Shown here: in pieces, positions 51,779-63,005 of the stretch | Layout of the letters: each line of letters opens with the position of its first letter | How positions within the stretch are numbered: position 1 is the first letter of the stretch | NCBI RefSeq assembly: GCF_000443995.1 | Contig: NZ_AUMC01000009.1 | Coordinates: forward strand, 124,001 to 188,000 | Source of the DNA: Bacteriovorax sp. BAL6_X | GTDB taxonomy: Bacteria > Bdellovibrionota > Bacteriovoracia > Bacteriovoracales > Bacteriovoracaceae | DNA: 64,000 nucleotides | Direction of reading: 5' to 3' | The notes under the pieces: model-generated | Told to the model about the DNA's origin: nothing | Seen by the model: the letters and a program-made list of their open reading frames with translations, nothing else | The model's database searches: none | Position numbers and translations under genes: made by a program

Positions 51779-51841
51779 GCAAAATACAAATATTTTGCAT
51801 TCGTGAGATATATTATTAAGATTCTTACACACATTTGTCAA
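51779..51841 (-). promoter_or_regulatory. tRNA-Ser promoter overlapping end of TPR gene, with leader hairpin
   Basis: Minus strand TTGACA (complement of 51836-51841), 17 bp spacer, TAATAA (complement of 51813-51818). The -35 box overlaps the stop codon of the TPR gene. Between -10 and the tRNA a perfect 7-bp hairpin (GCAAAAT / ATTTTGC, 51779-51798) abuts the tRNA 5' end and may mark the processing site. Confidence 0.7.
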
Positions 51842-54800
51842 CGCTTTAATGCATTTATTAATGCAAGAATATTTTGACGGTCTCTAGCAGCTGGGCTGAG
51901 CGTCAAATATCTTTGAAATTTATCGATTGCAAGGTTAGGTTGACCAAGTTCTTTATACAGAAAACCCATCATCTTATTTAAGTCTGGATCATTCGGATTA
52001 AGCCTGTTAGCGCGCTGAAAGAACTGTAGAGAGGGTACAAACTCTCTTGTTTGAAATGTTAATTTACCCATTGAGAAAATAGCATCAAAATAGTTTTTAT
52101 TAATCTGAATTGCCTTAGATAAATTCTTTTTGGCCTCTTGGACTTTTTTGCCTATTAAATAAATTTCCCCTAACATATAGTAACCAAATTCTGAATTTGG
52201 ATGTTTTTCAATTTCAACAAGTGCTGCTTTTTCAGCATCTCTGAACTTTCTTTGACTAAAGAGAATCTTAGAACGGTAATAATTAATCCTAGGGTAAGTA
52301 GGTAATCTCTTTTCTAAAATGTCTAAATGCTGACTAGCGAGGCCGTAGTTATTCATATGAATATAAGTTATGATTAACTTTTCTCTAACTAGAAGGTTTC
52401 CTGGCTCATATACAAGAAGCTTAATCGCATTCTCGATCAACTCTTTATAATTTCTTTCGATCTCAGATACTTCAACTAAGTAAGAGTATAGAGCACCGTC
52501 TTTTTTATTCAGACGATCGAGAACTTCTTTCATCTCACGATAAGCTTCATAATTCTGATCACGATAGTAGAAGACTGCGATTTGTCCATAAAGCTTTGGA
52601 TTATCTCTATGTTCTAAGAGCTCTTGACGAAGATATCCAATAGCAGTTGTAACACCATCTGTTTCGTATAAGACCTTACTATTTAGAATTTTATAATCAA
52701 TATTAGATGGATTTAATCCCATCGCTTCATTTAAGAATATCTTTGTTTGTTTAAATTTTTTATTTTTGAAGGCGATCTTGGCCATTTCAAATTGAGCGAT
52801 ATCACTAAGAGGATTTACTCTTGCAGCGGCCTTAAACTTATCAAAGGCCATCTTATCATTTGCAATTAAGTTATAATAAAGTCCTAAGAGCATATGAAAT
52901 TCAAAAGTCTCTCTAAACTTCTCACTTGTCGATAAAGCTGATAGTAATCGTTTCGCTTCGTCTTTTTTATAGGACATAATATTTGCTTTAATAAGCGCAT
53001 AATTAATTCGAGGATTAACTGGATGTAATGCTCTTAACTTAGTTAGAGTTGTTATCGCAAAATCAAAATAACCTCTTTTGACTTGTAGCTCTGCTAAGTA
53101 AAGTTTTGCATCAATACTTGTCTCATCCAATGAAACTGCTCTTAAGGCCAATTCAAATGCCCTGTCCCAGTTTAAAAGTGCGACTTCGTCTTTTGATTGT
53201 CTTATGAGAACTTTTATTTTACTTGTTGAGATAACCTTTTGAGTAAGATCACTTCCAGCAACATCAAGAGTTGCAAGAGTATCTCTTAAAGATTCATCAT
53301 CATAAATCTTAAGTGATTGTTGGAATAGCTTTGTTGCACCTTGAATGTCTTTATTATAGGCCTTAACAAAGCCCATGAACTTTAGACCTTGAGCAAAGTT
53401 ATATGGTGACCCACCACCATATTTTGCAATTAAGATTGAGGCTATCTTATTTAGTTCCCCCATTTTCTCTAACTCTAAGAGGAGATCCCCATATATAATT
53501 AAAAACCTGTAATCACTTTGAAACTTTTCCTTATTCTCAGTAATAAGTTTAAGGGCATCAGTACTATTTTCATTTAAGAGTAGATAGTTAACCATTGCAT
53601 CAATCGATTCAACAGTTCTTAGCTTAGCTTGAAATAGCTTGTCATAAACAATCTTGGCCTTATCAAGCTCACCAGCTTTTAAGAGATAGTTCAAGTATAT
53701 TGAAAACATCTTAATAGAGGGTTTATTCGATTTTAAATAATTATACCTTTCAATAGTGAATATCGCTGTTTCATATTTTTGAAAATAGGCATAAAACTGA
53801 GCAGCCCCGATAACGACATCAATATCTGACAAAAGCTTTGAATCTTCAATTCTTATCAGTTTTGAGAGAACTTGACCTGCTTCAAATTTATTTTGTGTAT
53901 CAATTAGTAAATCACTATAAGCGTGGATCAATTTGCTAATAGCAGGATTTCCTGAGAATTTGTAACGAAGCGAGAGATTAAACTTATTTGCCGCACTAAT
54001 ACGATTTACAAAACCTTCTTGTTTAAACAAGGCCATACCTTCTTTATAGGCCAATTGCGCTTTTTGCGGCTGTGCAACTTCAGTTGCAACAGGGAATGAT
54101 ATTTTTGGAACAACAACTGTTTGAATATCTTTCTTCTCTTCAGGCAATAGAAAAATTATCGTCACGACAAGAAATAACACAACAACTAAGTTTCTTTTCT
54201 TATTATTAGTAACTTCCTTTTTTTCGACATGCTTTTGAACAACTTTTTTCTTAGGTTTCTTTTTAAGCCTACGCTCTTCTTGCATAATCTGAAGTTCAAT
54301 ATCACTATAGTCTTCAGTCTTTGTTGGAAGCTCTTCTTTCTTTAACTCTGCGAGATTGAACATCTGGGTAGCTGCATCGGAGTCAACAACTTCTTCAGGC
54401 TCAGGTTCAGGCATTTTATCTTTCCCCTCCTCCTCATCACTACCATCAGAATCTTCACCATCGCTATCAAGATCAAATTCATCTCTAAAATTATTTACAA
54501 CGACAGTTTTGGCAACATCCTCGTCTTCTTCTTTATCTATACTTTTCTTTTTTAAACTAGAGACATTAACAAGAACTGTTTTATCAATTGGAGGTGGTCC
54601 TTCTTCCCCAATCTCATCCTTTGCTTCGTCTTCTAATTCCTTCTTGGCCTTAAATTTCTCTTCAATTTCTTGATAATCAATATCGAATTCTTTGTCTTTA
54701 GAAAATTTAAACTCATTAAAGGCAGTTTTATCTTCACCTATCAAAGTATGATGCTTTTGCTCACTATCTGTTTGAGCATATTTTACTTCTTTTTGTGTTT

Positions 54801-55008
54801 CTTCTTTAACCGACACTGGCTCTTCAATTTTAGAAAAGAGTTCGCTTAGTTCTGGAATTGCGTTTACAGGGGCCCAATCCCCTGTTGGAAACTTTTGAAA
54901 TAGACATGAGTCATCGATTGCATCTTTATGACCCAACTCAATTAATTCTGAAAATACAAAAGGGCCCAAAACCTTATTTGATTTGGTTTTGACACGAAAC
55001 TTTATCAT
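51838..55008 (-). CDS. GYF-like domain, membrane anchor and TPR protein (1056 aa)
   Basis: Residues 1-60 resemble a GYF_2/DUF4339 module (VLGPFVFSELIELG then GDWAPVNAIPEL). Residues 61-270 are acidic and disordered, with four copies of a KT-hydrophobic-N motif (93-99, 142-148, 167-172, and a variant at 213-218). One membrane helix at about 273-289 follows, then about 750 residues of TPR repeats outside the cytoplasm, e.g. NPDLNKMMGFLYKELGQPN near the end. No enzyme motif. It looks like a cytoplasm-to-periplasm scaffold. It follows the complex I-like cassette by 37 nt on the same strand. Confidence 0.7.
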   Translation of the reverse strand: MIKFRVKTKSNKVLGPFVFSELIELGHKDAIDDSCLFQKFPTGDWAPVNAIPELSELFSKIEEPVSVKEETQKEVKYAQTDSEQKHHTLIGEDKTAFNEFKFSKDKEFDIDYQEIEEKFKAKKELEDEAKDEIGEEGPPPIDKTVLVNVSSLKKKSIDKEEDEDVAKTVVVNNFRDEFDLDSDGEDSDGSDEEEGKDKMPEPEPEEVVDSDAATQMFNLAELKKEELPTKTEDYSDIELQIMQEERRLKKKPKKKVVQKHVEKKEVTNNKKRNLVVVLFLVVTIIFLLPEEKKDIQTVVVPKISFPVATEVAQPQKAQLAYKEGMALFKQEGFVNRISAANKFNLSLRYKFSGNPAISKLIHAYSDLLIDTQNKFEAGQVLSKLIRIEDSKLLSDIDVVIGAAQFYAYFQKYETAIFTIERYNYLKSNKPSIKMFSIYLNYLLKAGELDKAKIVYDKLFQAKLRTVESIDAMVNYLLLNENSTDALKLITENKEKFQSDYRFLIIYGDLLLELEKMGELNKIASILIAKYGGGSPYNFAQGLKFMGFVKAYNKDIQGATKLFQQSLKIYDDESLRDTLATLDVAGSDLTQKVISTSKIKVLIRQSKDEVALLNWDRAFELALRAVSLDETSIDAKLYLAELQVKRGYFDFAITTLTKLRALHPVNPRINYALIKANIMSYKKDEAKRLLSALSTSEKFRETFEFHMLLGLYYNLIANDKMAFDKFKAAARVNPLSDIAQFEMAKIAFKNKKFKQTKIFLNEAMGLNPSNIDYKILNSKVLYETDGVTTAIGYLRQELLEHRDNPKLYGQIAVFYYRDQNYEAYREMKEVLDRLNKKDGALYSYLVEVSEIERNYKELIENAIKLLVYEPGNLLVREKLIITYIHMNNYGLASQHLDILEKRLPTYPRINYYRSKILFSQRKFRDAEKAALVEIEKHPNSEFGYYMLGEIYLIGKKVQEAKKNLSKAIQINKNYFDAIFSMGKLTFQTREFVPSLQFFQRANRLNPNDPDLNKMMGFLYKELGQPNLAIDKFQRYLTLSPAARDRQNILALINALKR

Positions 55009-55045: not shown

Positions 55046-56029
55046 CTAGGCAGTGCGTGGATTATTTTTCACAATACCAAATATATTCTGTCTGTATGCT
55101 AGTGAAATAATCAAGAATATCGTCGAAAGTAATTGTAAATTCGTTAAATAATCCATGTGTAAATAAACGATATGTCCTATTAAGAATAAATAGGCCACGT
55201 GTATAATCCCCATGAGTTTAGATACAAGTGGAGAATAATCAACTTTAATAGCAAATATTAACAAGTATATGACTAAGAACAACTGATAAAAACTATCAAT
55301 ACCAAAAGTTGGAAGATAGATAACTGCACTAAATAAACAAATCGACATCAGTTGAATGGCCTGATAACGGGTATCGACTTTTATAAACGAAAATATCACC
55401 TGTACGCATAAGAATAATAGGTAAAAATAAGGGCTTAACTCTATATTCAAACTAATAAATCTTTCTAAAACAGATAAGCAGAATATATATTGCAGGATTG
55501 AAAGATATGGACGCTTTTTTTCTTTAGGCATTAATAAAGTTGTCGTAACAACAATTAGAATTTCATAGAAAAAGTTACCTAACTCAACACCTTGGAATTC
55601 TTTAACAAAGAAGTAAACTACTGTAATGATAATCCATGCGAGAATATAAAATAAACTATGATCACTCTTTTTATCCGTGTCAAAAAAACAAAGGGCACCA
55701 AGAAGAAGAACAATATCAGTAACACCAGTAAAGTTCCATATATTAAAAAGTGAAAACCATAAGAGTGTAAATCCTTTGAACAAAGATCTTAAGTCACCCT
55801 TACTATTGAAAAAGAAAAATGAAAAAGTTACTGCTGTTACAGCAAAATAACTTCTCTCAGTTGAAGAGAAAACAAAATCCTTAAACAGAAAATAAAACAC
55901 ACCTAAAAAAATCATTGAAAGAATAGATGTACGTTGTTTTTCATTAACCCCTGAATACTTCTCTAAAATAGAGTTTAAAAAATATGTGACAGGATAAAAT
56001 AATAATAGTGAATAAAAACTAGCTTGCAT
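55046..56029 (-). CDS. polytopic membrane protein, possible diverged NuoN-like subunit
   Basis: About 10 membrane helices in 327 residues and almost no soluble part. By itself not recognisable. It occupies the NuoN position as last gene of a seven-gene cassette in the order A-H-J-K-L-M-N. No conserved antiporter Lys or Glu can be placed with confidence. The ATG overlaps the upstream stop by 11 nt. Confidence 0.5.
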   Translation of the reverse strand: MQASFYSLLLFYPVTYFLNSILEKYSGVNEKQRTSILSMIFLGVFYFLFKDFVFSSTERSYFAVTAVTFSFFFFNSKGDLRSLFKGFTLLWFSLFNIWNFTGVTDIVLLLGALCFFDTDKKSDHSLFYILAWIIITVVYFFVKEFQGVELGNFFYEILIVVTTTLLMPKEKKRPYLSILQYIFCLSVLERFISLNIELSPYFYLLFLCVQVIFSFIKVDTRYQAIQLMSICLFSAVIYLPTFGIDSFYQLFLVIYLLIFAIKVDYSPLVSKLMGIIHVAYLFLIGHIVYLHMDYLTNLQLLSTIFLIISLAYRQNIFGIVKNNPRTA

Positions 56030-56858
56030 GGTTTAACTCCACACTCTTGTTACAAAAGTCGACAAATACAGTAAGTAGAACCATTAAAGGTATCAGTTTT
56101 GCTAGGCCCGAAACAAATGAAATAGATAGAATTATCGTCATCATTGAAATATTAGCTGTCATAATAAATTGCATACGTTCTTTAGAACCTTTAATGAACT
56201 CAGACAAACCAAGCAAACTAAGTGCCGTAAGTAAAACTGGTAACGTTTGAACTTGAGTAAGTAGCAATAGAGATAGAGCAAGAATATTAATCGAATTAGT
56301 AACTCTTAGTCTAAAATGAAGTCCAATTAACAGAAGTACAATAAATGGAACAATGAATATTGATGTACTTGAAACATAATCTACATAATTAATAAGTGTT
56401 AAATATTTCAAAATCATAAGAGATAGTAAGACACTATCTTCTTTAGAAAAGAAAATAAATAATAATGAAGAAATCACTAGAGCGTAGAAAAGATAGTAAA
56501 ATTGATCCTTAAAAATTAATAGACCTATTAAATTTACAAATAAGTAAGCTAGAAACTTGAAATTATGTAATTTAGCAATTGAAAGTAGAGACATCGTCCC
56601 TAGTAAGAAAGTTGCCATATTAGAAGCACCAAATATTACGAAAGCAAGGGGTGCCATTAATATTAAGCTTAACGAATCAGACTTTCTTAAAAGGTATAAA
56701 CTAAATAAGGCACCCACCACCGGTAAGAAACCAAACTCTACTCCCAAAGTGAGACCTGAGAATCCTGTTGAATAAAGTATGCCACTGAGTACGAAACATA
56801 AAATTGCTGAAATAAATATAGAAGCTATAAGTATAATATATTCTTTAGTGAAGCTCAT
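56019..56858 (-). CDS. polytopic membrane protein, possible diverged antiporter-like (NuoM/N) subunit
   Basis: About 9 helices in 279 residues (NuoM is about 500). One segment, GSKERMQFIMTANISMMTI, lines up by eye with the KRMLAFSSISHAG block of antiporter-type subunits, including the Lys-x-Arg-Met start, but the Ser-His core is lost. ATGA overlap with the upstream gene. NuoM position in the cassette. Confidence 0.5.
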   Translation of the reverse strand: MSFTKEYIILIASIFISAILCFVLSGILYSTGFSGLTLGVEFGFLPVVGALFSLYLLRKSDSLSLILMAPLAFVIFGASNMATFLLGTMSLLSIAKLHNFKFLAYLFVNLIGLLIFKDQFYYLFYALVISSLLFIFFSKEDSVLLSLMILKYLTLINYVDYVSSTSIFIVPFIVLLLIGLHFRLRVTNSINILALSLLLLTQVQTLPVLLTALSLLGLSEFIKGSKERMQFIMTANISMMTIILSISFVSGLAKLIPLMVLLTVFVDFCNKSVELNHAS

Positions 56859-58141
56859 TTCATTACCACCTGGATAATAAGCACGAGAAAGTACGATGCC
56901 ATAAGAATCATACTTAATGCACGAACACTACGATAAGACAGAGCAAATGCACCAATATGTGAGTGAGTCATGGTAACCTGAGAACCTACCTTATCTTTTG
57001 ACGAAAAAATTTCATCAATGAATGTAAATCGCTTCGTATTACCTAAATTAATTCTCGTCCCAATCATTGTTGTAAGCTGAGGAAATTTAACTGCAAGGCC
57101 AAATACTAGAAAATTTAAAGTAACATAAGAAGCTGTTGCATAATAAATAGGTTCACGGTCAATATCACCAACTAGGCTTTGGAAAAATATTAACCCAAAA
57201 GAAATTAGACTTATTGTTATTAAACTATATAGAAATTCAAACCATTGAAGCGCTTCACGGTTTCTTTGAGTTGATTCTGTATTTAGAAGAAATACGATCA
57301 TTGCAACAAAGAATGTTAAGACGAGAATAGTTGAATTTCCAATTGTAAAGGCCAATGTAAATAGTCCGATTAACCAGATCTGATCAAATAACTCATATGA
57401 AAAGTACTTTTTTAGTACTTGTGTCTCTTGTAACAGTATATTTTTTGTAGAGATAAATGACTTACCTACATAGTAGAAAACGATAATCGACATCAATAAT
57501 GTTTCTAAGTTCAATAAGACAGCAATAATTGAAGTTAATAAGAAAACCGCTTTAAAGATACTATTCTTACTCATTATAGTTAAAAATATTAGAATTGATA
57601 AAGTAATAAGAAATACATTAAGAGTCATTGAGATATGTTGGATATTCGATAATAACAAAAATGAAATAATTACACCGTCTGTAATGGCAAAGTCATCATC
57701 ATTAGAATGTAAAAAACTCAAAAATAGATATACAGAAAACAGGTATTTAAATGAAGCAGACTTATCAACTAAAGTAAGAAAACAAATTATCGCTATTTTT
57801 AAAATTGCTAAGGATCTAAACTTAAAGTCTGCCTGAGAGAAGTTAAAAAAACTACATGTACTAAAACCTATGATCTTTAAGTTAATGTCGATAGGTAGTA
57901 GTAGAATACCAAATGGTAAAACTTCATAAACCTTTCGTTTGCTTTGATCAATAATCAAGTAAGAGAACACAAAAGGTATAATGGTGTTAAAAAAATCAAA
58001 TTCGACACCAGAAAAGTAATAAATAAAATTTAAGATTATAGGAAATATACTAATAGTAGTCTTAGAGTAATTATTCAAACGACTACTAAAATGAAGGCCA
58101 ATGAGACTAAGGATGAATAATGAGATATTTATATAGATCAT
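56855..58141 (-). CDS. polytopic membrane protein, possible diverged NuoL-like subunit
   Basis: About 13 helices in 428 residues, the largest protein of the cassette, in the NuoL position. A hydrophilic stretch near residues 360-395 precedes a last helix, reminiscent of the NuoL C-terminal part, but the usual PFHxWLP-type motifs are absent. Overlaps both neighbours by 4 nt. Confidence 0.5.
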   Translation of the reverse strand: MIYINISLFILSLIGLHFSSRLNNYSKTTISIFPIILNFIYYFSGVEFDFFNTIIPFVFSYLIIDQSKRKVYEVLPFGILLLPIDINLKIIGFSTCSFFNFSQADFKFRSLAILKIAIICFLTLVDKSASFKYLFSVYLFLSFLHSNDDDFAITDGVIISFLLLSNIQHISMTLNVFLITLSILIFLTIMSKNSIFKAVFLLTSIIAVLLNLETLLMSIIVFYYVGKSFISTKNILLQETQVLKKYFSYELFDQIWLIGLFTLAFTIGNSTILVLTFFVAMIVFLLNTESTQRNREALQWFEFLYSLITISLISFGLIFFQSLVGDIDREPIYYATASYVTLNFLVFGLAVKFPQLTTMIGTRINLGNTKRFTFIDEIFSSKDKVGSQVTMTHSHIGAFALSYRSVRALSMILMASYFLVLIIQVVMK

Positions 58142-58398
58142 TTCAGGCCCTGCCTTACTTTAAACTCTTTAAAAATAGCATTAATTATAAGAAAGATCGG
58201 AGCTGAATAAATAAAAATCATGACTCCATCACCTAAGCTGATTGATTCTTGGACTCTTAGATCAATTAGTAAAAGAAAGATTACTATGACTGTAAAAAGG
58301 GAAAAAAGCTTCTTTGTAAATCGCTTAGTAAAAAGGTAAACGCCAATATTTATAATAAACAGAGTTGATAATAATGTAAAAGGATCGATATTATGCAT
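58138..58398 (-). CDS. small membrane protein, NuoK-like topology
   Basis: Three helices in 86 residues, as in NuoK (about 100). YLFTKRFTKKLFSLF follows the NuoK pattern of a basic turn before helix 2, and the third helix ends in a basic tail. The helix-2 glutamate of NuoK is missing. ATG 58398 has GGAG 7 nt upstream; an ATG four codons earlier is possible. Confidence 0.5.
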   Translation of the reverse strand: MHNIDPFTLLSTLFIINIGVYLFTKRFTKKLFSLFTVIVIFLLLIDLRVQESISLGDGVMIFIYSAPIFLIINAIFKEFKVRQGLK

Positions 58399-58837
58399 TC
58401 TTATCTCCATCTAAATTTACAATTGATAAAAATGCTATAAATACAAGCAATACACTAAATTTTAATAAGATTGTCCAATCAACATGTGTATCAACATTAA
58501 AATTATTAATTGAACCAATTAATCCACCACTACTCTTAAGATGATAGATATTAACAGAGAATACACCCAGTACTATTGTTGTAAATAGAAAATACGGTAA
58601 ATACTCAAAACGCTTAAATCTTACCTCAGACGTTGGAAAACAATATTCAACTACACTTAGAACGAGAATAAACAAAGATAAGAAAATAAATAAGAAATAT
58701 AACAATATAGTAGAAGAAATACCTAAAAAATTTAAAAGAAGCAGCGTTAGAGATACAGGATATAGAATCATCGTGTATCTCTTTTTTGAGAAAGCGGCCA
58801 ATAAGAAGAATATGATGATTAAGATATTAAAATACAT
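58391..58837 (-). CDS. membrane protein, NuoJ-like topology
   Basis: Five helices in 148 residues as in NuoJ, with a longer hydrophilic loop before the last helix (WTILLKFSVLLVFIAFLSIV), which resembles the NuoJ closing segment (aromatic, Phe, then a hydrophobic run). AAAGGT precedes the ATG, which overlaps the upstream gene by 11 nt. Sequence similarity itself is weak. Confidence 0.5.
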   Translation of the reverse strand: MYFNILIIIFFLLAAFSKKRYTMILYPVSLTLLLLNFLGISSTILLYFLFIFLSLFILVLSVVEYCFPTSEVRFKRFEYLPYFLFTTIVLGVFSVNIYHLKSSGGLIGSINNFNVDTHVDWTILLKFSVLLVFIAFLSIVNLDGDKNA

Positions 58838-59651
58838 TGAATACCTTTGTAATACATAAAATCATTATGACTACTAAGCTAAAGACTGCTCTACTACGAG
58901 CACTACTTAGTATAGTCGAATAGTCTTTGAGTGGTTGAAATTTAAGATAAGTATTACTTAAGATAATTAAAACCGATTGATAAAATAAAACAAAGAGAGA
59001 TACGACAAAATAATAAAGAGCAACCGATTCAAACTTACTTTTAAAAAGCAATGACCAATCGGTATTAGTAAAAGTTAAATTAATAAAAAAGAGAGCAATA
59101 AAGCTCTGATATAAAAGTCTTACGTAGGAACATTGAATACTAAGATATTTCTTATCTGAATATATAGAACCTGCCTTTATAACTTCAATCTCAGTTGTAT
59201 AAAAAAGAGCTAACACCGGTAGGCCAAAAAGTAACTTAATAAGAAAACTGTTTGTTTGAATTAATGAATAAATTATTAAAAAAGTACTCAAGACTATAAG
59301 CTGACAAATAATTATTTGCGTCTTTTCGATGATTTCTGAACGTATCAATGAGAGTCTAAATCTAAAAATACCAACAAAAATTGTGACAGCAACCATAAGA
59401 ACATAGAATGGTAAGATATAGCTAATTTCGTTTGTCAGTATAAAAAACGCAGATATTGTCTGTCCGAAGATGGCCAAGAACAAGATGACGATAAAAGAAT
59501 TAAAACATAAAGCATCTACACTCGCAATATCGTGTGAAGCTGCTAAATATTTCCTCAAACTCAAAGTCGGTAAGATTTCTTTCGAGTTAAGAAGAGAACC
59601 CATTAATTGAATAACGATTAGCCAGAGTGGCAAAGCAATAATTAGTTCCAA
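58827..59651 (-). CDS. membrane protein, diverged NuoH/HyfC-like
   Basis: Eight helices in 274 residues, as in NuoH (8 helices, about 330). The loop between helices 5 and 6 reads EIEVIKAGSIYSDKKYLSI, matching the NuoH/HyfC pattern E-x-E-L-x-x-G-x-x-x-E-Y-S-G-x-x-x-A-L at several positions, including the Glu pair and Tyr-Ser. The N-terminal ERK/RxGP block of NuoH is absent. TTG start with AGAGGA six bases upstream. This is the best-supported member of the cassette. Confidence 0.6.
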   Translation of the reverse strand: MELIIALPLWLIVIQLMGSLLNSKEILPTLSLRKYLAASHDIASVDALCFNSFIVILFLAIFGQTISAFFILTNEISYILPFYVLMVAVTIFVGIFRFRLSLIRSEIIEKTQIIICQLIVLSTFLIIYSLIQTNSFLIKLLFGLPVLALFYTTEIEVIKAGSIYSDKKYLSIQCSYVRLLYQSFIALFFINLTFTNTDWSLLFKSKFESVALYYFVVSLFVLFYQSVLIILSNTYLKFQPLKDYSTILSSARSRAVFSLVVIMILCITKVFNVF

Positions 59652-59677
59652 GAACTATCCTCTTTAATTTTAGATAA

Positions 59678-59977
59678 TTACAAAATAAGTAGTATTAAAA
59701 TTGTAGCAAGACCAATCAATATTGAATACGCTTCTTTATAAAAATCTAGTGTTTGTGCACCAAGAATAACAACTGTAATCATGGCAATAACTTGAAAAAC
59801 AACAAGAAGCTTAAATGTCATCTTTAATGAAACTAAGTTTGATTTGGCCAGATGTGATTCACGATTCAATTTCTTGAAAGGAGCTTGGGCCATTTTAGGT
59901 TTGAAAAACAAGGGGTAGCCTAAGACTACCCCAAGAATAATAAAAAAAGTTAAGGATGTTAGTAGTACTAATTCCAT
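59678..59977 (-). CDS. small membrane protein, NuoA-like topology
   Basis: Three helices in 99 residues with a hydrophilic loop after helix 1 (FFKPKMAQAPFKKLNRE), matching NuoA layout (P-rich basic loop, a Glu, then helix 2 starting near FKLLVVF). The NuoA YECG and FDVE motifs are not conserved. ATG one base after the nuoN stop, so co-transcription with nuoN is near certain. Confidence 0.5.
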   Translation of the reverse strand: MELVLLTSLTFFIILGVVLGYPLFFKPKMAQAPFKKLNRESHLAKSNLVSLKMTFKLLVVFQVIAMITVVILGAQTLDFYKEAYSILIGLATILILLIL

Positions 59978-59978
59978 A

Positions 59979-61454
59979 CTACTTAATTAGGAGCAAGGCC
60001 CCGTTAGCAAGAGCGATAAGCTTTTGCCAGAAAATACCAAGAAGTACAACTGGAAGCGTATAAGCACCAATTACTAATTGGTTGATAAATCCGAAACCAC
60101 CGATTTGCTCATCAGATTCTGCATCTTTAAGAATCATTACACGAACAACTTTCATGTAGTAGTAAAGAGAGATTACAGAGTTAAGAGCAGTAATAACCGC
60201 TAGTACATAGAATTTCTTATCAATAATAGCAGCAAGAATGTTGAACTTAGCTACAAATCCCGATAATGGAGGAAGACCAGCTAGAGAAAACATTGTAATC
60301 GCCATAGCAATGGCCATAACTGGATGCTTCTTAATAAGACCAGAGAAACGATCGATATGATCATTACCATAGTGATCTTGAATAAATGATGCAACATAAA
60401 ATGCTACAAGCGTCATAAATAAGTAAGTTACAGAATAGAAAAGTATTGCAGTCCATCCTGATTTACCAAGTACAATCGCACCAAGCATCATTACACCAGC
60501 GTGTGAAATTGAAGAAAAAGCAAGCATTCTCTTAATTGAGCGCTGACCGATAGCTGATACGTTACCAACTGTCATCGTAAGAGCTGCTACGATACTTAGA
60601 AGAACTAACCAAGAGTCTTTTAGAACTCCTACATCTCCACCAAAGAATACCTGAGTAAGACGAGCAAAAGCTACGATCCCTGCAAACTTAGGAACTAATG
60701 AGAAGAATGCTGTAACTGGCAGAGGTGAACCTTCGTAAACATCTGGAGACCACATGTGGAAAGGTACACAAGAAATCTTATAACCAATCCCTACAAAGAA
60801 AAGTAAGAACGAAGGAATAAGAATTGCCGTTTGTTCAGTAGATAGAGTTGATAGCATTGGCATTAGTTCAGAGAAGTTGATTGTCCCTAGAACACCAAAA
60901 ATATGACTCATACCAAATAACATCATACCAGCAGTTACACCACCGTATAGTACATACTTAAGCCCGGCTTCAGTCGAACGTTCGTCGTTCTTTTTAAGAG
61001 CGGCCATTGCGTATGATAGTAGTGAAAGAGTTTCGATCCCTAAATAGAATAGGAGCATATTATTTGCAGAAGCCAGAAGCATCCCACCAACTAAAACACC
61101 CATTGCTAGAATTGTGTATTCAGCTTTTGTACCTTCATAAAGATCCTTAGAGATCTTAGAAAGGTAAATAACACCAGCTGTACTAAGGATCATTACGATC
61201 TTTGCAAAACCTGAGAAGTGATCAATAACTAAAGACTTAGTAAAAATATGTGTCGGCTCAATACCAAGACCTTTAACCTGGTAGATAAGCGCACATAGTA
61301 GTCCAAGCATTGAACCCCAGTAAAACATGTTTTTTGAGCTACCTTTTTCATCATTTCCGTAAGTAGCTTCGATGAGGATTAAGGCTCCCATCGTGAAGCA
61401 TACTAAAAGCTCCGGAATATAATGTGAGATACTCGCTAAATAATTTAAAGCCAT
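59979..61454 (-). CDS. nuoN: NADH-quinone oxidoreductase subunit N
   Basis: Fourteen-helix antiporter-type proton-pumping subunit of complex I. LLFYLGIETLSLLSYAMAA (with the helix-5 Glu), YKISCVPFHMWSPDVYEGSP and KRMLAFSSISHAGVMMLG are canonical. About 491 residues. AGGTGA precedes ATG 61454; a GTG directly before it is less likely. Lies 18 nt after nuoM. Confidence 0.96.
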   Translation of the reverse strand: MALNYLASISHYIPELLVCFTMGALILIEATYGNDEKGSSKNMFYWGSMLGLLCALIYQVKGLGIEPTHIFTKSLVIDHFSGFAKIVMILSTAGVIYLSKISKDLYEGTKAEYTILAMGVLVGGMLLASANNMLLFYLGIETLSLLSYAMAALKKNDERSTEAGLKYVLYGGVTAGMMLFGMSHIFGVLGTINFSELMPMLSTLSTEQTAILIPSFLLFFVGIGYKISCVPFHMWSPDVYEGSPLPVTAFFSLVPKFAGIVAFARLTQVFFGGDVGVLKDSWLVLLSIVAALTMTVGNVSAIGQRSIKRMLAFSSISHAGVMMLGAIVLGKSGWTAILFYSVTYLFMTLVAFYVASFIQDHYGNDHIDRFSGLIKKHPVMAIAMAITMFSLAGLPPLSGFVAKFNILAAIIDKKFYVLAVITALNSVISLYYYMKVVRVMILKDAESDEQIGGFGFINQLVIGAYTLPVVLLGIFWQKLIALANGALLLIK

Positions 61455-61472
61455 CACTTCACCTATTGACTA

Positions 61473-63005
61473 TTAAAAAGTCGCTAATAATGAAACTAGT
61501 TTACCTACAGAAGCCTTCATCATATCTAGTAATGGAGATGGCCAAATACCAAATAGGATTACTGCAACACATAGTGGAACCATGTAAAAGATTTCTCTAG
61601 CATTCATATCTGTATAAGATTTATTTTCTTCAATAACTTCACCAAAGAACATTCTCTTGAACATCCATAGTAGGTAAGCAGCACCAAGAAGAAGACCAAC
61701 AACTGCAAGAACAGTGATTGTTGTAAATCTATTGTAGATCCCTAGGAAAATTAGAGCTTCAGAGATGAAACCTGAAAGTCCTGGAAGACCCATTGATGCG
61801 AACATCGCGATGATGAAAACAATTGAGAACTTTGGTAGTTGTGTATAAAGACCACCAAAACCTTTTGTACCATCTGGTCTAACGATCCATCTGTGGTGTG
61901 ATCTTTCATAAAGAATACCAATAAGAAGGAACATCATAGCTGTTGAAGTACCGTGGTTGAACATCTGAAGAACAGCACCGTTCATACCTTGTACTGTCAT
62001 TGCAGCAAGACCTAGCATTACGAATCCCATGTGTGAAACTGAAGAGTATGCAACAAGTTTCTTAACATCTGTTTGTGCCATGGCACAGAATGCTCCGTAA
62101 ATAACGTTAATTAAACCTAGCCATGCAATTGCATCTGCAAAGTAAACAGAAGCTGATGGGAAGATTGGGAATGCAATTCTTAAGAAACCATAAGTACCCA
62201 TCTTAAGTAGTACACCGGCAAGGATAACTGAGATCGCTGTTGGTGCCTGAACGTGTGCGTGTGGTAGCCACGTATGGAATGGGAAAACTGGAACTTTGAT
62301 CGCGAAACCAATGAAAAGTGCTACAAAGAATACTTTTGCAAATGGAAGGGCCATACCAAAGATATTTACAGTTTCGTTTACAAATTTACCGCCTGAAAGC
62401 GCTAGAATATTGAATGAATCAACACCTTGACCTGTTACGAAGTATAGAGCAACCATACCAACAAGCATTAGGATTGAACCAAAGAATGTATATAAGAAGA
62501 ATTTAACAGCTGCGTACTCTCTATTCTCACCACCCCAAATTCCAATTAGGAAGAACATTGGGATCAGCATTACTTCCCAGTAAACATAAAATAGGAAGAA
62601 ATCCATTGATAAGAATACACCGTAAACAGTTGATTGAAGCATTAGTAGTAATGCAAAGTAACCCTTAACTTGCTTTTTAACTGTCCATGAAGAAAGGATA
62701 CAGATCGCAAAAAGAAGCGAAGTTAAAAGAACCATTGGTAATGAAATACCATCAATTCCTAGGTGATAAAAAATGTTAAACTGCGAAATCCAAGAATGTT
62801 TAATTGTAAACATCTCTTGCATACCTGGCACAGTATTGTCGAATTTCATGTATAGACAACCTGATAAAACAAGTGTGATCACAGTATTAATCAAAGACCA
62901 TACTCTAATTGCCGTCTCTTTCGTCTTAGGTAATAAAAGTACCCCAAGAACACCGATCATAGGCATCCACAGAATCCAACTTAATAGATTAGAATGTGCG
63001 TTCAC
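61473..63005 (-). CDS. nuoM: NADH-quinone oxidoreductase subunit M
   Basis: Antiporter-like subunit of complex I, 510 residues, fourteen helices. FYVYWEVMLIPMF (helix-5 Glu), VPVFPFHTWLPHAHVQAP and DVKKLVAYSSVSHMGFVMLG are intact. GTG start with AAGGAG five bases upstream. 18 nt after nuoL. Confidence 0.97.
   Translation of the reverse strand: MNAHSNLLSWILWMPMIGVLGVLLLPKTKETAIRVWSLINTVITLVLSGCLYMKFDNTVPGMQEMFTIKHSWISQFNIFYHLGIDGISLPMVLLTSLLFAICILSSWTVKKQVKGYFALLLMLQSTVYGVFLSMDFFLFYVYWEVMLIPMFFLIGIWGGENREYAAVKFFLYTFFGSILMLVGMVALYFVTGQGVDSFNILALSGGKFVNETVNIFGMALPFAKVFFVALFIGFAIKVPVFPFHTWLPHAHVQAPTAISVILAGVLLKMGTYGFLRIAFPIFPSASVYFADAIAWLGLINVIYGAFCAMAQTDVKKLVAYSSVSHMGFVMLGLAAMTVQGMNGAVLQMFNHGTSTAMMFLLIGILYERSHHRWIVRPDGTKGFGGLYTQLPKFSIVFIIAMFASMGLPGLSGFISEALIFLGIYNRFTTITVLAVVGLLLGAAYLLWMFKRMFFGEVIEENKSYTDMNAREIFYMVPLCVAVILFGIWPSPLLDMMKASVGKLVSLLATF

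Follow-up and report, generated by a model that had tools for sequence, protein, structure and literature searches.

What are the seven membrane genes that follow directly on the genuine nuoL-M-N genes in this DNA, and what could they still do? The window analysed here is the whole stretch of 64,000 nucleotides (G000:C9:124001-188000), G000 being the 3.23-Mb window genome. The block comprises seven minus-strand membrane ORFs at 55046-59977, encoding in transcription order proteins of 99, 274, 148, 90, 428, 279 and 327 aa (Table 1). Adjacent ORFs overlap by 4-20 nt or lie at most 26 nt apart, the first begins 1 nt past nuoN, and all 1645 codons stand in open frames. The packing and coordinates are exactly as given in the preliminary description, which had proposed that the block is a second, degenerate NuoA-H-J-K-L-M-N membrane arm. 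Canonical nuoA, H, J and K are present just upstream, beyond the window edge, and together with nuoL-M-N make up a full genuine seven-gene arm. Searched alone against Pfam, the seven window proteins give no significant match. The second complex I to which we assign the block is labelled CI-prime, and its membrane subunits A'-N'.

Table 1. Features of the block, its neighbours and the unlinked lipoprotein gene; coordinates are window positions unless a locus is named
Feature	Coordinates	Strand	Basis
A' (degenerate NuoA position, 99 aa, 3 TM)	59678..59977	-	ORF; position of intact NuoA in G018 (Oxidored_q4 E 1.4e-27); synteny in 50 genomes
H' (degenerate NuoH position, 274 aa, TTG start)	58827..59651	-	Profile match to intermediates 92% (97% with sister genomes); G018 intact (NADHdh E 4.4e-105)
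J' (degenerate NuoJ position, 148 aa, 5 TM)	58391..58837	-	Position and topology; G018 intact NuoJ (Oxidored_q3 E 7.1e-29)
K' (degenerate NuoK position, 90 aa, 3 TM)	58138..58410	-	Position and topology; G018 intact NuoK (Oxidored_q2 E 1.9e-26)
L' (degenerate, shortened NuoL position, 428 aa)	56855..58141	-	Position; G018 counterpart 675 aa, NuoL E 4e-88
M' (degenerate, shortened NuoM position, 279 aa)	56019..56858	-	Position; G018 counterpart 493 aa, NuoM E 3e-98, Proton_antipo_M E 1.9e-73
N' (degenerate, shortened NuoN position, 327 aa)	55046..56029	-	Position; G018 counterpart 460 aa, Proton_antipo_M E 7.6e-38
Canonical nuoN (492 aa), final gene of the genuine arm, next to the block on its upstream side	59979..61457	-	Proton_antipo_M E 6.1e-71
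Canonical nuoM (510 aa), genuine arm	61473..63005	-	Proton_antipo_M E 1.3e-69
Membrane TPR protein (1056 aa), GYF-like N-terminus, conserved downstream boundary of the block	51838..55008	-	TPR Pfam matches; synteny
Window-genome Cys-rich lipoprotein	L195:9026-10492 (G000:C6)		HMM E 2e-132

The seven-gene block recurs, in identical order, in 50 genomes of Bacteriovoracaceae (49 tabulated plus G017). The relatives were located via nuoN and the downstream region was then read, since these proteins change too rapidly to be picked up by ordinary searches: H' used directly as a protein query returned no relative, not even one of the same genus. Assignment of the group to Bacteriovoracaceae rests on named records, four of which belong to the family. 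In 38 of the 50 genomes the seven ORFs lie between nuoN and the TPR gene with canonical nuo present, while the other 12 are without the canonical arm. The ORFs of the relatives repeat the size pattern small-large-medium-small followed by three larger, and the predicted helix counts of 3, 8, 5 and 3, obtained by a simple hydropathy scan, likewise hold up, recurring as approximately 3/8/5/3 and then three larger proteins in the 50 genomes, so that block and helix pattern together are not due to chance. In almost every member of the family the gene for the TPR protein (one TM helix) comes after nuoN or mfd, and this includes G022, which is without either arm; the protein is thus not specific to the degenerate arm.

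The identity of the block is read from relatives whose copies of the seven genes are unmistakably NuoA, H, J, K, L, M and N. The G018 counterparts (121, 349, 172, 98, 675, 493 and 460 aa) match canonical A, H, J, K, L, M and N one-to-one by BLAST (E 1e-7 to 3e-98), the six tested against Pfam fall as expected into Oxidored_q4, NADHdh, Oxidored_q3, Oxidored_q2 and Proton_antipo_M, and the usual pump residues and the NuoH Glu loop are seen on reading the sequence. The clade with an intact arm consists of G018, G099, G105 and G108, and intermediates exist that are slightly worn (G038) or more worn (G051, G083, G094, G058, G040 and G055), documenting a gradual erosion. Profiles of the intermediates match the intact profiles at 93-100% for A', H', J', K', L' and N', with M' reaching only 11%. 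The window-genus H' profile in turn matches the intermediate H' profiles over 149 columns, and over 252 columns once sister genomes are included (Table 1), with less than 1% for any other position. When the pooled degenerate set was compared with canonical profiles and the intermediates were left out, only A' (51%) and H' (84%) were linked. Iterative HMMs that started from the intact proteins recovered 19 of 30 H' sequences with no wrong-position match, the window H' not being among those recovered.

The central claim of a second degenerate arm is therefore established, through the intact relatives, the intermediates and the H' profile link, and for the seven window genes themselves this identity appears very nearly certain. 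The comparison of individual profiles with complex I subunits bears it out in part: H' joins NuoH-like relatives without cross-match, but the window-genus profiles of the other six give no significant match, and these genes are assigned from position, topology and size order. The size order agrees with NuoA/H/J/K/L/M/N in 20 of 21 pairs, and 7 of the 5040 permutations do equally well. A chance resemblance of an unrelated membrane operon to complex I would fit the lack of Pfam matches to the window proteins, the six profiles without a significant match and an uninformative AlphaFold model of the window H' (three-row alignment, mean pLDDT 44); the intermediates, however, join the window forms to intact Nuo subunits position by position, and with the H' link added the probability of such a coincidence is close to nil. 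Two sequence signatures to which the preliminary description had pointed are themselves coincidences: neither the Glu-rich loop of the eight-helix protein, likened to NuoH, nor the KERM block, likened to the antiporter KRML motif, is conserved even within the genus, and the genuine NuoH Glu loop is missing from all of 17 aligned second-arm sequences except those of G038 and G018. An identity as an Mrp antiporter was rejected, since the order and sizes are those of NuoA-H-J-K-L-M-N and not of MrpA-G with MrpE/F/G, and the intact relatives match the NuoA and NuoH families.

The second arm is not a recent copy of the one beside it. In a NuoH tree every second-arm NuoH lies on one side of a branch with SH-aLRT 100, and the family's canonical NuoH stands separately, beside a Deltaproteobacteria sequence; the branches are long and finer placement within this tree is unsafe. 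The separate clades identify the second arm as a different complex I lineage standing in tandem with the canonical one, and speak against the canonical arm having been duplicated in tandem recently, a possibility that was rejected.

The canonical complex I of the window genome consists of nuoBCDI, at G000:C10:803-806 kb (L155:8229-11030), and nuoAHJKLMN. A search of the whole of G000 for NuoF gave no Complex1_51K match, and its electron donor is thus not the usual NADH module. The genome also carries a separate Mrp-type Na+/H+ antiporter operon (L007:10270-15509, G000:C10), recognised from its sequences and Proton_antipo_M matches.

Every peripheral subunit (B-G, I) had been described as absent. 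This is correct for the block itself, but a second peripheral locus, found by following NuoD counts, holds a lipoprotein-linked worn NuoCD' at an unlinked position in G000 and further subunits in relatives. The unlinked operon of G018 encodes a lipoprotein (485 aa), B', a fused CD' (577 aa), E', F', G' and I'; the canonical complex of this genome, like that of the window genome, has B, C, D and I only. Most relatives have the operon in the form lipoprotein-B'-CD'-I', with E'F'G' missing. Worn E'F'G' are retained in G010 (L162; F' E 6e-32) and worn F'G' in G062 (L161), the order of erosion differing between lineages. At G000:C6 the lipoprotein gene and a very worn CD' (505 aa, HMM E 1.9e-27) lie 16 nt apart and the next gene follows after 74 nt; no B' or I' was found at this locus, where the two gaps leave no room for them.

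The residues of the peripheral subunits, as read from alignments, have been lost unevenly. The four Cys of B' are kept in G007, G010, G012, G041, G001 and G003 and lost in G015, G074 and G061; the eight Cys of I' are kept in G007, G015, G074 and G061, with about one cluster kept in G001 and G003. The retention of these Fe-S Cys in many lineages suggests a redox function of some kind in them. Of 14 aligned CD' sequences, those of G018 and G038 alone have both the His and the Tyr of the quinone site. The lipoprotein (~500 aa) is the best conserved member of the set, with a lipobox identified by inspection and about ten invariant Cys; Pfam gives nothing for it but a faint inorganic pyrophosphatase-like match (E 0.01-0.02). 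It is almost wholly limited to Bacteriovoracaceae. A shorter, weak relative of 364 aa occurs in another family of the phylum (G117, L255) with no adjoining complex I genes. In G079 (L253) a further complete-looking NADH-type nuo operon lies directly upstream of lipoprotein-CD'-I'. In some genomes I' is followed by a membrane protein whose His motifs look like those of a fatty-acid desaturase; it was considered unrelated.

Retention of the second arm is independent of the canonical arm. The order mfd-seven genes-TPR, with the canonical arm missing, is found in G061, G014, G016, G077 (where the piece examined begins at the seven genes), G073, G019, G101, G054, G040, G055, G021 and G076, and most of these genomes have no copy of canonical NuoH or NuoN. 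Mapped on a tree of the TPR protein, the state of the canonical arm changes at least 4 times and wearing of the second arm at least 7 times, the root of this tree being uncertain and wearing being a cut-off on a continuous score. On the evidence of these 12 genomes, the seven genes are not a pseudogene block, nor do they serve as an accessory of complex I. One option offered in the preliminary description was an accessory assembly docked to complex I. The position of the block directly downstream of nuoN, with which it is probably co-transcribed in most genomes, would suit such a role, but the clean absence of the canonical arm from the 12 genomes contradicts it as a general rule and CI-prime owns a separate CD', B' and I', which makes docking a very improbable explanation.

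The frames themselves are under selection. Between genomes with intact arms the second arm changes at a rate similar to nuoN (dN 0.07-0.23 versus 0.12-0.19), and between worn pairs its proteins change about 5-8 times as fast as nuoN, leaving ~20-40% protein identity between species of the same genus. The dN/dS values are rough, with dS saturated in many pairs; they are ~0.10-0.29 for the closest worn pairs where dS could be estimated, and mostly 0.2-0.6, with two values of 0.7-0.8, for more distant ones. Neutral change over the 1645 codons would introduce about 245 stops per substitution per site, that is, hundreds of stops per genome, and the frames are open; selection thus maintains the frames, though not most of their residues. 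On the same count a pseudogene block was rejected. The rapid change could also reflect slow decay, and a dispensable relic with no function left would explain the very high divergence, the residues and subunits missing from many lineages and the complete loss in G050. Against this stand the seven open and ordered frames in 50 genomes, kept despite saturated synonymous divergence, and the persistence of the block after loss of the canonical arm, and we therefore judge a functionless relic improbable, if less so than docking.

We propose that CI-prime is a second, lineage-specific complex I that has been worn down to a non-redox membrane complex with a lipoprotein, a proposal to which we give an even chance. 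The block would form the membrane arm, and the peripheral arm would come from the unlinked operon lipoprotein-NuoB'-NuoCD'-(NuoE'F'G')-NuoI'. The G018 clade still has an intact arm, G018 itself also having the full NADH-input set; in most of the family E'F'G' have been lost and the quinone-site, Fe-S and antiporter residues have eroded, while gene order, topology and open frames persist. The window genome is an extreme, with the lipoprotein, a worn NuoCD' and seven shortened membrane proteins, NuoB' and NuoI' being missing from the locus and NuoF from the whole genome. The worn proteins may still assemble as a membrane complex with a non-redox job. Its likeliest task would be to act as a periplasmic-face scaffold for the Cys-rich lipoprotein, CD' serving as the cytoplasmic foot. 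Such a complex I-derived, non-redox membrane platform for the lipoprotein is the leading candidate for the function, at slightly under even chances.

The distribution of the parts speaks on both sides of this platform. Unlinked partners vanish together: G022 has lost the arm, B', CD' and I', keeping the lipoprotein (its genus-mate G077 retains the arm), and G050, in a genus without the lipoprotein, is itself also without the arm and CD'. The co-occurrence of arm and lipoprotein is imperfect, the lipoprotein being present with no arm at the usual place in G065, G079, G092, G106 and G022, and an intact arm occurring in G108 with no lipoprotein detected; some genomes are incomplete, and single absences are weak. 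An alternative is that CI-prime still converts energy, as a stripped electron wire from NuoI' to NuoB' or as an ion channel, coupled to the membrane and using a donor or acceptor that is new. Homology leaves little doubt that the intact clade pumps, and the B' and I' Cys retained in the genomes listed above would serve such a wire. In contrast, E'F'G' are missing or worn nearly everywhere, the CD' quinone-site pair and the NuoH Glu loop each survive, among the aligned sequences, only in G018 and G038, and B' and I' are missing from the G000 locus. With E'F'G' lost, the quinone site gone in most members and B' and I' missing in the window genome at that locus, redox work is disfavoured in this genome, whose second set is apparently no longer capable of known complex I chemistry, and continued energy conversion is unlikely, though the least so of the alternatives to the lipoprotein platform. 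More generally, and more tentatively than for the platform itself, a whole complex I may have been turned repeatedly and in parallel into an Fe-S-free, non-redox complex with a new periplasmic-side function, able to outlive a working complex I.

Complex I is usually viewed as either retained whole or lost, and here living relatives preserve every stage between a complete enzyme and a remnant that can no longer be recognised, a gene set being kept as open frames while its known catalytic parts vanish, even where the canonical arm is gone. The series offers a natural dissection of which complex I parts serve roles beyond electron transfer and pumping, and allows a set of membrane genes that had defied annotation to be named, in a bacterial family with known predators among its members. 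A literature search found no paper describing a degenerate second complex I arm.

Among known systems, CI-prime shares with bacterial complex I (NDH-1, NuoA-N) the A-H-J-K-L-M-N order and homologous B, C, D and I, with E, F and G in G018, and its intact members keep the pump residues. It differs from NDH-1 in that most members are without the NADH module, have eroded quinone, Fe-S and pump residues and shortened antiporters, and in its added Cys-rich lipoprotein, its split loci and a NuoH clade apart from that of the family's canonical complex I. EFG-less complexes of the cyanobacterial and chloroplast NDH-1 type have no NuoE, F or G and require a separate donor, and retain N2, N6a/b, the quinone site and the antiporters. 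The canonical complex I of G000 is of this kind too, whereas its second set has no recognised Fe-S subunit, B' and I' having been looked for at the CD' locus. Energy-converting hydrogenase-related (Ehr) complexes, relatives of the hydrogenases, are complex I-like subunit sets without catalytic metal ligands. CI-prime resembles them in this loss of ligands, but has a full NuoAHJKLMN set and intact ancestors within the same family. Mrp antiporters and the DabA/DabB inorganic-carbon complexes use complex I membrane proteins without a redox arm and consist only of antiporter-like and small subunits, whereas CI-prime keeps homologues of NuoA, NuoH and NuoCD. Complex I with an extra NuoM likewise gains membrane-arm subunits, the additional pump lengthening one working complex, whereas in CI-prime the addition is a whole second arm, degenerate and independent.
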